A stretch of 7,423 nucleotides of DNA from Sulfurimonas sp. (GTDB lineage: Bacteria > Campylobacterota > Campylobacteria > Campylobacterales > Sulfurimonadaceae): assembly GCA_002733945.2 (NCBI GenBank), contig NVXO02000002.1, positions 212,886-220,308 on the forward strand, read 5' to 3'. Position numbers and translations under genes: made by a program. Positions 1,169 to 6,433 of this stretch are shown here, piece by piece (the stretch's first letter is position 1; every line of letters begins with the position of its first letter). The notes under the pieces were generated by a model. It was given only the letters and a program-made list of their open reading frames with translations. It was not told where the DNA came from and made no database searches.

Positions 1169-3292
1169 ATGACAAAGAGTAAATTTGTTGCTTTAATTTT
1201 AAAAAGAGATGGTTCTTATAAAGAATTTTTATCATATAAAATAGAAGATGCGATTAAAAAAGCTTTTAAAAGTGAAAATACAATATATGATGACTCTATT
1301 TTTGCTCATATTTTAGACAAGCACAAAAACAGAAGAATAATTGCTGTTGAAGATATACAAGACCTTATAGAACAGAGTCTGTATGAATCAAGATACTTCA
1401 ATGTTATGCGCTCTTTTATGCTCTATAGACATTTACACAAGATGCAAAGAGAGACAGAGATAGATGAGAGTACTACATATATCAACTCTACACAGACGGT
1501 AGAGGAGTATATAAATGGAAATGATTGGAGAATTAAAGCAAACTCAAACACAGGCTACTCAAACGCAGGACTAGTAAACAATAGTGCGGGAAAAGTCATA
1601 GCTAACTACTGGCTAGATAAGATTTACTCCAAAGAGGAAGGATATGCACATCGTAATGCTGATTATCATATTCATGACCTTGATTGCTTAACTGCTTATT
1701 GTGCAGGGTGGAGCTTAAGAATTCTTCTTGATGAGGGTTTTAACGGTGTGAGGGGGAGAGTTGAGAGTAGTCCTCCAAAACATTTTCGTGAAGCACTTGG
1801 ACAGATGGCAAATTTTCTAGGTATACTGCAGAGTGAGTGGGCAGGAGCACAAGCTTTTTCTTCTTTTGATACAAACTTAGCACCCTATGTTTTTAAAGAC
1901 AAATTACCATTTAAAGAGATTAAAAAAGCTATAAGAGCTTTTATTTACAACCTAAATGTACCAGCCAGATGGGGTCAGTCACCTTTTACAAATATTACAA
2001 TTGACTGGAGTGTACCAGATGACTTAAAAGATCAGATTCCTACCTCAAATGGTACACATTTATTAAAAAACTGTTTAGATGCGGAACTTTTAGATTTTGC
2101 AAAAGAGTGTGGCTGTGAAAAACTCGAAGATATGACCTATAAACATTTTCAAAAAGAGATGAACTCTATTAACAAGGCTTTTTATGAAGTAATGACAGAA
2201 GGGGATAAGAATGGTCAACCTTTTACCTTTCCTATTCCGACGGTAAACATCACAGAAGAGTTTGACTGGTATGGAGAAAACACAGACCTTCTTTTTGAAA
2301 ATACTGCAAAAATAGGCTCCTCATATTTTCAAAATTTTATAGGCTCTCAATATAAAAAAGATGAAAATGGAACATTAATCCCAAATGAAGATGCCTACAA
2401 ACCCGGTGATGTAAGAAGTATGTGTTGCAGACTCCAACTCGACTTAAGAGAACTACTAAAAAGAGGTGGTGGGCTTTTTGGAAGTGCCGAAATGACTGGG
2501 AGTATAGGTGTTGTTACACTCAACATGGCACGATTAGGATTTCTTTTCAAAGGAGATATAGAGGGTCTCTACCATAGACTCGATGAGCTTATGAATTATG
2601 CGAAATCAACCTTAGAGAAAAAAAGAATTTTTATACAAGATATGTATGAAAGAGGGCTTTTCCCCTATACAAAAAGATACCTCCCTGGCTTTAACAACCA
2701 CTTCTCAACCATAGGAGTCAATGGTATTAACGAAATGATTAGAAATTTTACAGATGATACCGACAACATCAGTTCGCATGAGGGTATCAAATTTTCAACA
2801 GAAATTTTAGAGTATATGAGAACAAAAATGATTGCTTTTCAAGAGGAGACAGGCAACCTCTATAACCTCGAAGCAACACCAGCAGAAGGGACAACTTACA
2901 GATTTGCTAAAGAGGATAAAAAAAGATATGGTAGTGCTATTGTCCAAGCAGGAGAAGATGAAAACATTTACTATACAAATTCATCACAAATACCTGTAAC
3001 TTTAACTGATGACCCTTTTGAAGCATTAGCACTTCAAGATGATTTACAATGTAAATATACAGGAGGAACCGTACTACATCTATATATGAAAGAAAAAATT
3101 AGTTCTGCTGAGTCCTGTAGAAAACTTCTAAAAAGTGTCATTACAAACTTTAGGCTCCCTTATATAACAGTAACCCCTCTGTTCTCTGTTTGCCCAAAAC
3201 ATGGTTATCTTTCAGGAGAACATGAATACTGTGTAAAATGTGATGAAGAGCTACTAACTAACTACATAGAAAAAAAACAAAAAGTTTCATAA
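1169..3292 (+). CDS. nrdD: Anaerobic (class III) ribonucleoside-triphosphate reductase, large polypeptide lacking the glycyl-radical loop
   Basis: This 707-residue protein reduces ribonucleoside triphosphates to deoxyribonucleotides by radical chemistry in the anoxic cytoplasm. Residues about 4-92 are an ATP-cone (LILKRDGSYKEF, VEDIQDLIEQ), which senses the ATP/dATP ratio. The catalytic barrel shows HDLDCLTAYCAGWSL (Cys178), PFTFPIPTVNIT, and RSMCCRLQLD (Cys419-Cys420, expected to include the thiyl-radical cysteine), then RGGGLFGSAEMTGSIGVVTL. The C-terminus holds a zinc site, Cys675-x2-His678-x9-Cys688-x2-Cys691, and stops 16 residues later. In ordinary NrdD proteins the glycyl-radical motif (RVxGYxRPV...) follows this zinc site in the same chain. 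Here it is absent and is found in the next ORF in another frame. ATG 1169 has AAGGAG eight bases upstream. The following glycyl-radical ORF and nrdG complete the operon. Confidence 0.95.
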   Translation: MTKSKFVALILKRDGSYKEFLSYKIEDAIKKAFKSENTIYDDSIFAHILDKHKNRRIIAVEDIQDLIEQSLYESRYFNVMRSFMLYRHLHKMQRETEIDESTTYINSTQTVEEYINGNDWRIKANSNTGYSNAGLVNNSAGKVIANYWLDKIYSKEEGYAHRNADYHIHDLDCLTAYCAGWSLRILLDEGFNGVRGRVESSPPKHFREALGQMANFLGILQSEWAGAQAFSSFDTNLAPYVFKDKLPFKEIKKAIRAFIYNLNVPARWGQSPFTNITIDWSVPDDLKDQIPTSNGTHLLKNCLDAELLDFAKECGCEKLEDMTYKHFQKEMNSINKAFYEVMTEGDKNGQPFTFPIPTVNITEEFDWYGENTDLLFENTAKIGSSYFQNFIGSQYKKDENGTLIPNEDAYKPGDVRSMCCRLQLDLRELLKRGGGLFGSAEMTGSIGVVTLNMARLGFLFKGDIEGLYHRLDELMNYAKSTLEKKRIFIQDMYERGLFPYTKRYLPGFNNHFSTIGVNGINEMIRNFTDDTDNISSHEGIKFSTEILEYMRTKMIAFQEETGNLYNLEATPAEGTTYRFAKEDKKRYGSAIVQAGEDENIYYTNSSQIPVTLTDDPFEALALQDDLQCKYTGGTVLHLYMKEKISSAESCRKLLKSVITNFRLPYITVTPLFSVCPKHGYLSGEHEYCVKCDEELLTNYIEKKQKVS

Positions 3293-3302
3293 GGAGTATA
3301 AA

Positions 3303-3455
3303 ATGAATCGCGAAGATATTTTAAAATTATTACATAATAAAAGACAAAAATGTATAGTGTACACTAGGGTCATGGGGTACCATAGACCTGTGGAGAGTTT
3401 TAACATTGGAAAAACAGCTGAGCATAGAGAAAGAAAACAGTTTGTTGAACAATAA
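3303..3455 (+). CDS. Separate 50-residue glycyl-radical polypeptide of the anaerobic ribonucleotide reductase
   Basis: The product starts MNREDILKLLHNKRQK and contains CIVYTRVMGYHRPVES followed by FNIGKTAEHRERKQF. This is the C-terminal glycyl-radical loop normally fused to NrdD; by homology the radical forms on Gly25 of RVMGY. It lacks the rest of the enzyme and must dock onto the 707-residue NrdD. Ten bases separate it from the nrdD stop. A Shine-Dalgarno AAGGAG (3291-3296) overlaps that stop, six bases before the ATG, so it is translated in its own right and its frame differs from that of nrdD. The 16-residue lead-in looks like an amphipathic helix. Its 3' part overlaps the start of nrdG. 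It resembles in concept GrcA/YfiD of pyruvate formate-lyase. A fusion by slippage or a sequencing error in an A8 tract upstream is the alternative. Confidence 0.88.
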   Translation: MNREDILKLLHNKRQKCIVYTRVMGYHRPVESFNIGKTAEHRERKQFVEQ

Positions 3456-4134
3456 ACTTATTTATGATATTACTCAGTTTACCCATTTAGATTATCCAGA
3501 CCATCTTGCTTGTATTTTTTGGTTTTCATCTTGTAATATGCAGTGTGATTTCTGTTATAACAAAGATATTGTTTATGCGAAAGGTGGTAATTTTAGTATG
3601 TACTATGCCCTAGAGTTTTTAAAAACTAGAGTTGGTCTACTTGACGGTGTTGTTCTCTCAGGTGGTGAAGCAAGCAGTTATAATTTAAAAGAGTTCTGTC
3701 TCAAAATAAAAGAGTTAGGTTTTTTAATAAAACTCGATACAAATGGAACGAACTATGAAAAAATTAAAGAGCTCGTACAATGCAACTTAGTAGATTTTAT
3801 TGCTTTAGATTATAAAGCACCTCACTATAAATTTACACAAATTACCAAATCAAATAAATTTTCTGAGTTCTCACAAACTCTTAACCTATTGATAAAAAGT
3901 GACATTGCCTATGAAGTCAGAACAACACTACACCCTGACCTACTCACATATAAAGATATAAATAATATCATAGAAGATTTAGTGCAGAGAGGATATACAA
4001 ATAGTTATTTTTTACAAGAATTCTTAGAAACACAAAATATTGGAAATATAAAACAATCTACTCAAAAGTTTCAATATAATCTACTCTCAAATAGACTCAA
4101 GGTTGAGTACAGATATAATACCCCTCATTCTTAA
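3406..4134 (+). CDS. nrdG: Anaerobic ribonucleotide reductase activating enzyme, radical SAM
   Basis: This iron-sulfur enzyme cleaves S-adenosylmethionine to make the glycyl radical on the reductase, here presumably on the separate 50-residue polypeptide. The core motif is SSCNMQCDFCYN, with Cys43, Cys47 and Cys50 (C-x3-C-x2-C) binding the 4Fe-4S cluster. It is followed by LSGGEAS for SAM binding, then LIKLDTNGT and FIALDYKAP. At 242 residues it matches NrdG2/PflA-like activases rather than the shorter E. coli NrdG. No in-frame ATG precedes the domain. TTG 3406 has GGAGAG eight bases upstream but overlaps the previous ORF by 50 bases. TTG 3445 overlaps by only 11 bases and puts LIYDITQF close to the N-terminus, as expected for the family, but has a weak Shine-Dalgarno. 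Both are possible. The 3' end overlaps the convergent regulator gene by 38 bases. Confidence 0.9.
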   Translation: MEKQLSIEKENSLLNNKLIYDITQFTHLDYPDHLACIFWFSSCNMQCDFCYNKDIVYAKGGNFSMYYALEFLKTRVGLLDGVVLSGGEASSYNLKEFCLKIKELGFLIKLDTNGTNYEKIKELVQCNLVDFIALDYKAPHYKFTQITKSNKFSEFSQTLNLLIKSDIAYEVRTTLHPDLLTYKDINNIIEDLVQRGYTNSYFLQEFLETQNIGNIKQSTQKFQYNLLSNRLKVEYRYNTPHS

Positions 4135-4783
4135 TATTTTTTAGTAATTTTTTTACTGTCTTGGTACGAAAGCGTTTCACAAAAGTTCTTAATCTGTTTT
4201 CATTTCCATTACTTCCCCAGAGTGCTTTTTGAATTACATCATTACTAACAATACCATGAGATTTTTCATCTCCCTTATATAAAAGCAGTTCTAAGAATAG
4301 ACTCTCGTTTTTTGATAAAAAAACATACCTTCCCTTCTTATAGAGACTCTTTTTTTCATAACTATATGTGAACTCTTCGCAAAGTTCTAGAAGATATTCT
4401 TGAAATCTATGTTTTAAGGAGCTAATATACTCAAGAACTTCTTCTGGGTCAAATGGTTTAATGAAGTATTTTACAACACCTATGTCAATGGCACTTAAAA
4501 GTTTATCCGTGTCACTATAAGCACTTAAAATAATAATAGGAGTGTTTGGATTTATTTTTCTGATTTCTTGTGCCAACTCTAAACCTGTCATTTTTGGCAT
4601 CATAATATCAGTTATAACAATATCTGGAGGATTTTTAATATACTCCTGCAGGGCATCTTTACCATTACTAAGCATAGTAAAACTATGAAAATCGTCCCCG
4701 ATAGCTCTATAAAGGAGTTGTGATAAACTCTTCTCATCTTCTACCAGTAAAATTTTTAAGGATTTCAAAAATCTACTTTTCAT
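4097..4783 (-). CDS. Two-component response regulator, receiver plus OmpR-like winged helix
   Basis: The 228-residue protein has an N-terminal receiver (about residues 8-125). It contains the acidic pair in LVEDE (Glu15-Asp16), phospho-acceptor Asp59 in VITDIMMPKMTG, Ser87 in IIILSAYSD and Lys109 in YFIKPFDP. The C-terminal part (about 150-226) resembles a Trans_reg_C winged helix: FLSKNESLFLELLL, then VIQKALWG, LRTFVKRFRTK and NEGYYI. It is therefore a DNA-binding transcription factor activated by phosphorylation. Its ATG shares ATGA with the stop of the kinase gene (4-base overlap), so the two are a co-translated pair. A modest AAGG lies nine bases before the start. The target genes are unknown; nrdD or the kinase operon itself are only guesses. 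The last 13 codons are antisense to the end of nrdG. Confidence 0.93.
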   Translation of the reverse strand: MKSRFLKSLKILLVEDEKSLSQLLYRAIGDDFHSFTMLSNGKDALQEYIKNPPDIVITDIMMPKMTGLELAQEIRKINPNTPIIILSAYSDTDKLLSAIDIGVVKYFIKPFDPEEVLEYISSLKHRFQEYLLELCEEFTYSYEKKSLYKKGRYVFLSKNESLFLELLLYKGDEKSHGIVSNDVIQKALWGSNGNENRLRTFVKRFRTKTVKKLLKNIKNEGYYICTQP

Positions 4784-5928
4784 ATTTTTGCACCTTCTTC
4801 AAGTGGCAGTCTTATTATAAAAGTTGTTGTATCTGTATGAGACTTGACATCCATTGAACCATAAAAACCTTTTTCACAAATCATCTTAGATATAAAAAGT
4901 CCTAAACCTGTCCCAACACTTGTATGCTTTGTTGTAAAATATGGCTCAAAAATCCTATAAATATTTTTCTCTTGTATACCACCAGCATTATCTTCTAGTT
5001 CAATAGAGAGTTCTTGCATATTTTTTTCTACTTTTATAGTAATGACTCTTTGGGTTATATCATTTTGTACAAAAGCATCTATAGAATTTTTCACTAAGTT
5101 AAGAATCACCTGCGAGAGCTCATTTGAGACTCCAACAACCACAATGTCTCTCCCCTCTACATTTATCTCGATTGTTTCGCTTACTATGAGTCTATCTAAG
5201 ATGTTTAAAGCATCCGCAATGCTCTCATTAACATTAAAAAGGTATCGCTTTTTTGATGGTTTAAAAAAATTACTAAAATCATCCATGGTTTGAGACATGT
5301 TTTGTATGATATTTTTACCTTCACAATAGAGTGCATCAACCTCATTCATTTTCCCCTTTAAAGCTGCTTTTTTCAGAGTAAATATCGTGAGGTTCAACTC
5401 CGTTAGAGGTTGTCGCCATTGGTGTGCTATATTTGCCAGCATTTCACCTAAACTTGCTAAACGCGACTGCCAAAACATCACCTGCTGTTTCTCTTCGTTT
5501 TTTGTAAGTTCCTCTTTTAAATGCCGATTTAACTCTTTGAGCTCTTCCTCTTTTTTCTCTAAAGCCTCTTTATAAAACATCTCTTTGGTAACATCGTAAC
5601 GAATCGCCACAAACTCTTCAATCACTTCATTCTCATTTAAAATAGGAATCACAGTAGTGTTTACAAAAAATGTTGTGCCATCTTTAGCTCTGTTTTTAAC
5701 GGTAGCCTTATATATATTTTTTGACATTATTGTTTGCCACAAATCTTTAAACTTTGCATCTACTACATCAGGGTGACGTACTATGTTATGTTTTTGAGAA
5801 ATAAGCTCCTCTTTTGTATACCCAGAAATTTTGCAGAATTCATCATTCACGAAAGTGATAACACCATTCACATCTGTTTTAGAGATAATATTACTTTTTT
5901 CAATAGCTTCTTGATAGAGATTTAACAT
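4780..5928 (-). CDS. Cytoplasmic PAS-domain sensor histidine kinase, Aer-like PAS
   Basis: The 382-residue protein has no membrane segment or signal peptide. Residues about 5-115 form a PAS domain: VNDEFCKISGYTKEEL, then NIVRHPDV (Arg51-His52-Pro53-Asp54) and VKNRAKDGT. These resemble the FAD-binding PAS of the aerotaxis receptor Aer, so a redox or oxygen signal is likely but unproven; the Aer-family Trp before the VKNR segment is Tyr73 here. A charged coiled coil (about 117-150) links to the H-box SLGEMLANIAHQWRQPL, with His169 as the phosphorylated residue. The ATPase core has LNLVKNSIDAF (N box), DNAGGI (G1), FEPYFTTK (F) and GTGLGLFISK (G2), so it looks active. The downstream regulator overlaps its stop by four bases. 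The start has only a weak Shine-Dalgarno. Confidence 0.93.
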   Translation of the reverse strand: MLNLYQEAIEKSNIISKTDVNGVITFVNDEFCKISGYTKEELISQKHNIVRHPDVVDAKFKDLWQTIMSKNIYKATVKNRAKDGTTFFVNTTVIPILNENEVIEEFVAIRYDVTKEMFYKEALEKKEEELKELNRHLKEELTKNEEKQQVMFWQSRLASLGEMLANIAHQWRQPLTELNLTIFTLKKAALKGKMNEVDALYCEGKNIIQNMSQTMDDFSNFFKPSKKRYLFNVNESIADALNILDRLIVSETIEINVEGRDIVVVGVSNELSQVILNLVKNSIDAFVQNDITQRVITIKVEKNMQELSIELEDNAGGIQEKNIYRIFEPYFTTKHTSVGTGLGLFISKMICEKGFYGSMDVKSHTDTTTFIIRLPLEEGAKI

Positions 5929-6088: not shown

Positions 6089-6433
6089 TTAGTTCCATAG
6101 AATACTAACTCCATACTCTTGATTCAAAACCACATACTTTTTATAATAGACTTTTTTACTATACTTTTTACTCAGAAGCTCTACTTCTAAGTCTTCTTCG
6201 TTTAAAAGTGCCCGTATATCTTTGTACTGTAACCATTTCCCATACTTTGCCAAGGAGTTTTGCCAAATTTTAAAGTCACAACTTGCATCTTTTCGTAACT
6301 CAAAGACTTCCCCGTCTTCTGTACTCCAGTGCGCATTTGAGCAAGCATAAAGTTTTACTTTTTTACCACTTACTTCTTTGTCGCGAACTTCTATCTCACC
6401 ATCTTCACAGTAGGGACACTTACCTAATATCAT
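6089..6433 (-). CDS. Small zinc-ribbon protein, function unknown
   Basis: The 114-residue protein opens with a zinc ribbon like those at the C-terminus of DNA topoisomerase I: KCPYCEDGEIEVRDKE, then LYACSNAHW. Cys6, Cys9 and Cys31 are likely ligands, with His35 or Cys52 as candidates for the fourth. A conserved-looking middle (FKIWQNSLAKYGKWLQYKDI) and a basic-aromatic tail ending NQEYGVSILWN follow. It has no topoisomerase catalytic domain, membrane segment or signal peptide, so a cytoplasmic nucleic-acid-binding role is possible but not shown. ATG 6431-6433 has GGAG five bases upstream. It stands alone between the kinase pair on the same strand and the divergent SPL-like gene. A decayed copy of its tail lies just downstream, before the kinase. 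Confidence 0.75.
   Translation of the reverse strand: MILGKCPYCEDGEIEVRDKEVSGKKVKLYACSNAHWSTEDGEVFELRKDASCDFKIWQNSLAKYGKWLQYKDIRALLNEEDLEVELLSKKYSKKVYYKKYVVLNQEYGVSILWN

Follow-up and report, generated by a model that had tools for sequence, protein, structure and literature searches.

A class III ribonucleotide reductase from Sulfurimonas with a predicted glycyl-radical subunit encoded by a separate small gene

Organization of the locus

The window, which is the whole stretch of 7,423 nucleotides of Sulfurimonas sp. DNA that was analysed, carries on its forward strand, in this order, nrdD (1169–3292), a 50-residue open reading frame (3303–3455) and nrdG, which extends to position 4134. The nrdD frame runs from an ATG at 1169 to a TAA at 3290–3292 and closes 16 residues past its zinc-type site. 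The small open reading frame starts at ATG 3303 and is offset by +1 from the nrdD frame.

1169–3292, forward strand: nrdD, catalytic chain of a class III ribonucleotide reductase, 707 residues, without a glycyl-radical motif
1196–1441, forward strand: ATP-cone domain, NrdD residues 10–91 (PF03477, E 4.6e-17)
2423–2428, forward strand: Cys419-Cys420, finger-loop pair, invariant across the 27 rows of alignment A4
3191–3241, forward strand: zinc-type site Cys675/His678/Cys688/Cys691 of NrdD (C-P-K-H...C-V-K-C), invariant in the 27 A4 rows
3290–3292, forward strand: TAA stop of nrdD, sharing bases with the Shine-Dalgarno site that follows
3291–3296, forward strand: AAGGAG, Shine-Dalgarno site of the small gene
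3303–3455, forward strand: small gene, predicted glycyl-radical subunit of 50 residues and 6.1 kDa, matching PF13597 positions 530–562
3351–3353, forward strand: Cys17 of the small subunit, conserved among small and fused homologues
3375–3377, forward strand: Gly25, predicted radical glycine within RVMGYHRPV, assigned by homology
3445–4134, forward strand: nrdG (NrdG2 type), radical SAM activase (TIGR02495, E 1.7e-50)

A preliminary description of this DNA had placed the glycyl-radical loop on an open reading frame of its own, led by AAGGAG and an ATG, and had NrdD ending soon after Cys675-His678-Cys688-Cys691; every coordinate checked agrees with this, and 16 residues follow the zinc-type site. 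Cys419-Cys420 presumably include the thiyl-radical cysteine or cysteines, by homology, and the Cys675/His678/Cys688/Cys691 group would bind a metal. The TTG start of nrdG at 3445 is assigned from relatives, the open-reading-frame list beginning at 3406; both starts overlap the end of the small gene. An A-rich stretch (3270–3283) lies ahead of the nrdD stop. On the reverse strand, a PAS histidine kinase and response regulator (4097–5928), convergent with nrdG, make up an ordinary two-component system, and a 114-residue open reading frame (6089–6433) with a CPYC motif and further cysteines is without matches in Pfam and NCBIfam (E ≤ 0.1).

Family assignment of the two proteins

The 562 positions of PF13597 are divided between the two chains, NrdD covering positions 2–532 and the 50-residue protein positions 530–562. 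The NrdD barrel matches this family with an E value of 1.2e-156, and the chain scores 397 bits against TIGR02487 (cut-off 326) and 1070 bits against the class III reductase family NF006126 (cut-off 548). It does not belong with the class II enzyme NrdJ: its best families are those of class III, and class II models match it only over the ATP-cone part. The fold is like that of solved NrdDs, and the companion activase of class III is encoded by the adjacent gene (171 bits against TIGR02495, cut-off 131). The glycyl motif, which class III enzymes carry at the C-terminal end of the catalytic chain, is here on the separate 50-residue open reading frame. A glycyl radical and NTP reduction are predicted from sequence.

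For the 50-residue protein, PF13597 is the sole Pfam family matched at E ≤ 0.1; the Gly_radical domain of GrcA/YfiD (PF01228) is not matched in Pfam at that threshold. The likeness to GrcA/YfiD drawn in the preliminary description therefore stands as a functional analogy, a small separate glycyl-motif protein with phage copies included, and fails as family membership. Solved structures gave a single chance-level match, to ribosomal protein S20 (E 0.076). All five small proteins scanned matched positions 110–157 of phrog_4132, a PHROG family of unknown function with 179 positions, whose first 110 positions could hold another domain. Cys17 is kept in 120 of 120 small homologues listed (the best 120 of 1956) and in 108 of 117 fused homologues; as no more than an idea, it could serve as an inter-chain metal ligand or in a disulfide. 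The small protein and NrdD together are likely to form a class III reductase with its glycyl motif on a chain of its own, outside the GrcA family and likely working in a GrcA-like manner.

Conservation of the split

A scan of genome contigs for relatives gave 274 confirmed loci, of which the best 80 were kept; 79 of these bear titles that place them in Campylobacterota or a group within it, Sulfurimonas foremost, and the remaining one (L018) is titled 'bacterium'. The NrdD frame closes without a glycyl motif in all 80, and none of this set has a single fused frame. The small gene was found in 77 of the 80 kept loci, in addition to the source stretch; in the other three (L024, L045, L073) it is absent from the sequence examined. 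Relative to NrdD, the small gene is in the same frame in 17, in +1 in 12 and in +2 in 27 of 56 rows, these being the loci that match the zinc pattern, with the source locus counted twice (also as L001). The NrdD stop and the motif are 38–916 nt apart over 77 loci, and at most 250 nt apart in 70 of them.

A Shine-Dalgarno score of at least 5/6 of AAGGAG precedes 73 of 77 small open reading frames, compared with 33 of 800 random ATGs, where the best-scoring ATG upstream of the motif was chosen and 69 of the 77 chosen sit 21 residues ahead of the motif. All 77 scored start with ATG. Mean pN is 0.095 and mean pS 0.736 over 36 codons (77 loci), as under purifying selection, and the 50-residue protein has 1956 matches of comparable length in the protein database (E ≤ 0.001). 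The split in all 80 kept loci, together with the Shine-Dalgarno sites and the purifying selection, argues against a sequencing error or a pseudogene, and both are rejected.

Of 78 loci, 70 have an NrdG-type cysteine motif downstream of the small gene; the pattern was not found after the small gene in the other 8, one of which is cut off. Such an arrangement, found in 70 of 78 loci, is consistent with the proposal of the preliminary description that NrdG acts on the small protein. Two genes with PAC_bac and NifU_N matches separate nrdD from the small gene in some loci of the Arcobacter-like and related kind. The pair is seen at L111 (3582–4404) and L116 (3423–4233), where a PAC_bac gene (proteasome-assembly-chaperone-like) and a NifU_N-like gene form the spacer, the NifU_N match of L111 falling slightly under its cut-off; by eye, L118 has a PAC_bac-like gene in the same position. 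Possibly the two are Fe-S or assembly helpers for NrdG or NrdD.

Unlinked and extra copies in Campylobacterota

The small protein and NrdD were each searched against 397 genomes of the source phylum (E ≤ 0.001). Among the matches listed, the small protein was matched in 186 genomes, with frames of 51–90 codons throughout, and NrdD in 208, some of them weakly. One genome (G246) among the 15 inspected closely has the fused form, in a 648-codon frame, and splitting is thus not obligatory in the phylum. In seven genomes (G079, G170, G194, G201, G214, G263, G369) the small gene lies beside an nrdG-like gene with nrdD at least about 58 kb away, a separation that holds for circular contigs too; these nrdG-like genes were identified by eye, without a profile search. 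The persistence of the small gene beside nrdG even far from nrdD fits an activase and its substrate kept as a unit. Among the matches listed, three genomes (G332, G124, G356) have a strong NrdD match and no small match, that of G356 being at a contig end, and one (G355) has a small match and no NrdD match.

More than one small-gene match is present in 13 of the 186 genomes, among the matches listed, with a third in G349. In nine genomes (G079, G115, G175, G205, G213, G214, G262, G349, G350) the extra copy lies amid phage-like genes. Profile matches support this in G079 (spanins and a holin), in G115 (an endolysin) and, weakly, in G350 (a holin); G175 matched a phage family of unknown function, and the viral record L126, whose neighbours are identical to those of the G205 copy, has an endolysin profile match. 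The phage context of the other four was judged by eye, from like neighbours. Lone copies in G211 and G235 have no recognised phage genes nearby, and G126 retains a broken remnant of the small gene. In G225 the nrdD-small-nrdG operon is duplicated (C1:1343026 and C1:1923115, L116 and L117); the second operon is without the pair of spacer genes, and two overlapping frames make up its nrdD.

Plasmids, other phyla and the relation to fused enzymes

The Campylobacterota, to which the preliminary description had confined its proposed search, proved too narrow a scope, as Cupriavidus, Bradyrhizobium, Paracoccus, Azospira and other genera also have the split form on plasmids. In PLSDB, 28 plasmid records matched and 15 were examined. 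Nine of the 15 carry the split form, one from Campylobacterota (Sulfuricurvum) and eight from Pseudomonadota (two Cupriavidus, Bradyrhizobium, Paracoccus, Azospira, Aquabacterium, Shinella and Cereibacter). Two, both from Allochromatium, carry a lone small gene within the stretch read, and a Thiothrix plasmid has the small gene and nrdG with no NrdD frame by the zinc pattern. The lone Allochromatium genes (L175, 3501–3710; L180, 2460–2645) are annotated 'nrdD', with the large subunit absent from the stretch read; that of L180 adjoins a DUF3268 zinc-finger gene. Fused NrdDs are present on the remaining three plasmids, from Acidiphilium, Acidithiobacillus and Actinomyces. With the Acidiphilium NrdD as query, 117 of the best 120 matches listed are fused and three are not; in fused proteins 8–22 residues separate the last zinc cysteine from the motif.

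A tree was built from 75 NrdD rows, 40 split and 35 fused, for which a random draw took 22 loci from the 80 and 35 proteins from the 117 fused ones. L014, L159, P0175, P0205 and P0208 were dropped for failing the zinc pattern and L142 gave no NrdD frame; the fused G246 copy (L159) is therefore outside the tree. Split and fused NrdDs interleave, most simply with six label changes, of which at least three fall on branches with good support; a single change explains the split or fused label in none of 200 bootstrap trees. That the two parts have been fused and separated in nature suggests that both do one job, and it is the strongest argument that they would form a single enzyme.

Viral records

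Searches of IMG/VR gave 21 loci with the source protein and 175 with a broader alignment. The viral set of 81 records comprises the 21 loci and 60 new ones from the best 80 of the 175. It overlaps with the genome counts, L126 occurring as in G205 and L127 and L192 as in G214 (prophages). The glycyl motif is present in the matching frame in all 81 records (64 distinct cores), and a cysteine stands at R-5 in 80; the match in L237 sits within a long open frame. Terminase_6N was matched in 11 of 40 larger records, those of 183, 177 and 212 kb included. NrdD was matched (E ≤ 0.001) in one record, the 6.8-kb L188/G422, and in none of the other 80; part of this test was run at a limit of 1, at which G412 gave E 0.11. 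Many records are fragments, and an empty result alone shows nothing. No nrdG was seen when 77 of the 81 loci were checked by pattern; the nrdD flags that this check raised on L136 and L208 are chance matches on the opposite strand. Among the 50,697 cultured-phage records of INPHARED, tblastn (E ≤ 1e-3) gave no small-protein match.

In six loci (L122, L126, L128, L132, L136, L100) the phage copies adjoin endolysin, spanin or holin genes. By eye, L124 has a similar lysis-type setting, with a neighbour that lacks a profile match.

Structure prediction

In a model of a covalent proxy that joins NrdD and the small part, the small part is placed as in solved NrdDs, within the aligned range, a placement that depends on the fused homologues in the alignment. 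In a control fold on alignment A4, which has 27 rows of split NrdDs only, without fused homologues or small-protein rows, residues 705–757 have pLDDT below 50 and the small part is unplaced. Alignment A3, which set the small rows at the NrdD N-terminus, was discarded before folding.

Proposed mechanism and alternatives

The barrel, the cysteine pair and the zinc-type site are on NrdD by sequence, and the motif is on a separate gene that is conserved, led by a Shine-Dalgarno site and sometimes unlinked. Very probably, the 50-residue protein is a free-standing glycyl-radical subunit of the class III reductase, one that would be charged by NrdG and dock into NrdD. Action in trans is well supported as a reading of the gene arrangements: as copies are unlinked or phage-borne, the small piece acts in trans if it acts at all.

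In established class III chemistry, NrdG charges the glycyl domain once this has swung outward; the domain then re-enters the barrel, where the radical passes to a cysteine (PMC11226230, PMC12662201). Here, the flipping domain would be a free protein. NrdG would abstract a hydrogen from Gly25, probably with NrdD bound, by analogy with YfiD, whose activation was undetectable without its partner (PMC8683613). The loop of the charged protein would then enter NrdD beside Cys419/420, and radical transfer would start catalysis. Oxygen would cut just the 6-kDa piece and spare NrdD, so that a fresh copy could restore the 81-kDa enzyme. Copies in phages would most likely be spare cartridges for the host NrdD during infection. 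As phages and plasmids carry lone copies, the small protein is likely a plug-in, replaceable radical cartridge. Of the interpretation in the preliminary description, the split is borne out as real, conserved and unjoined by frameshifting, with unlinked and phage-borne copies; the interpretation as a whole is partly supported.

The alternative that survives best, although we consider it unlikely, is neutral fission, in which NrdD would depend on the small protein for its radical, the split would bring no repair advantage, and each copy would be bound for life to its NrdD. The tree permits several fissions and refusions with no obvious pattern, and fused relatives are common (117 of the best 120 Acidiphilium matches listed); extra solo copies, and lone copies in prophages, plasmids and viral records, nevertheless fit exchange better than lifelong pairing. 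More doubtful still is a role of the phage and plasmid copies as decoys or brakes on NrdG or NrdD that stop or redirect host dNTP synthesis. The position of phage copies beside late lysis genes in several records is odd for a DNA-synthesis gene, and the 77 viral loci checked show no nrdG by pattern, the two nrdD flags being chance; yet these copies retain the motif with its glycine and, in 80 of 81, the cysteine at R-5, and a simple decoy would have no need of the radical glycine.

Service to a pyruvate formate-lyase type enzyme, the role that GrcA/YfiD and T4 Y06I have (PMC8683613), is highly improbable, since the profile of the small protein is that of the NrdD C-terminus, the end that its NrdD lacks, and a PF01228 search of its own genome (98% complete) found no such partner. 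Least credible of all is programmed frameshifting or read-through that fuses the two frames into one chain: the A-rich stretch ahead of the NrdD stop and the local +1 offset would suit it, but the three frame relations, the 38–916-nt spacers, the entire genes in between (PAC_bac and NifU_N matches), the small genes' own Shine-Dalgarno sites (73 of 77) and ATG starts (77 of 77), and the unlinked and lone copies speak against it, and the genomes with an unlinked small gene refute it as a general mechanism.

Relation to known systems

The closest relatives are the fused NrdDs of NF006126/PRK08270 (Acidiphilium, Acidithiobacillus, Actinomyces, Desulfovibrio-like), which have a closely related barrel, a zinc-type site and a WTRVMGYHRPV-type motif as here; in these, one chain continues through the motif, whereas in Sulfurimonas the motif belongs to a second chain. 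Two likewise small glycyl-loop proteins, GrcA/YfiD from E. coli and the phage T4 copy Y06I, provide a barrel enzyme with its radical, but they repair a pyruvate formate-lyase that has its own glycine, and their family profile differs from that of the 50-residue protein (PMC8683613). Unlike GrcA's partner, the split NrdD is without a motif of its own, and the small protein would therefore be the primary radical bearer. NrdJa/NrdJb of Pseudomonas aeruginosa is also a two-chain ribonucleotide reductase; it is a B12-dependent class II enzyme with no glycyl radical, in which the cut separates a different domain (PMC4520616, PMC9669993). Phage nrdD genes split by introns or fragmentation, such as that of phiAS4, likewise code in parts, but these splits interrupt a phage-encoded nrdD and do not set apart a conserved stand-alone glycyl subunit (PMC3653736).

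In the solved class III reductases of Prevotella copri, Streptococcus thermophilus, Thermotoga maritima and T4, the catalytic chain itself ends in the glycyl domain (PMC11226230, PMC12662201, PMC9669993). Searches of the open-access literature, with ribonucleotide reductase papers and a phage survey among it, found no class III glycyl domain on its own chain. Plasmid pHG1 of Cupriavidus necator H16 (L177) reads as split, with an NrdD of 676 residues and 76.2 kDa and a small gene of 66 residues. Work on the H16 NrdDG by Siedow et al. in 1999 reportedly gave an NrdD size of 76.2 kDa. If so, this identity with the split NrdD would mean that a split enzyme has already been shown working in cells, and the 1999 Cupriavidus work may bear on priority. 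A Cupriavidus paper calls NrdDG essential for complete denitrification in H16 and gives nrdD of CH34 as Rmet_5137 and nrdG as Rmet_5139, with one number skipped (PMC2864759).

Significance

A natural two-chain form would part radical storage from catalysis and offer a dissociable radical for EPR, and it would allow direct study of loop recognition by NrdG and of loop entry into the barrel. Besides NrdD, the Sulfurimonas genome encodes one PF02867 reductase of the aerobic or B12 type. According to Andorfer et al., YfiD and Y06I are the sole validated spare parts, and others are considered possible for other glycyl-radical enzymes (PMC8683613); the small protein, carried by phages and plasmids too, would be a widespread spare-part candidate in the case of ribonucleotide reductase, and it provides a functional lead for phrog_4132. 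Beyond the subunit itself, we put forward tentatively, and with slightly more reserve than conviction, that phages and bacteria trade radical cartridges: at least two bacterial phyla would have a detachable 6-kDa subunit, and prophages, phages of up to 212 kb and plasmids would carry the cartridge alone, recharging or hijacking the host reductase, oxygen-cut fused ones included, upon infection or exposure to oxygen.
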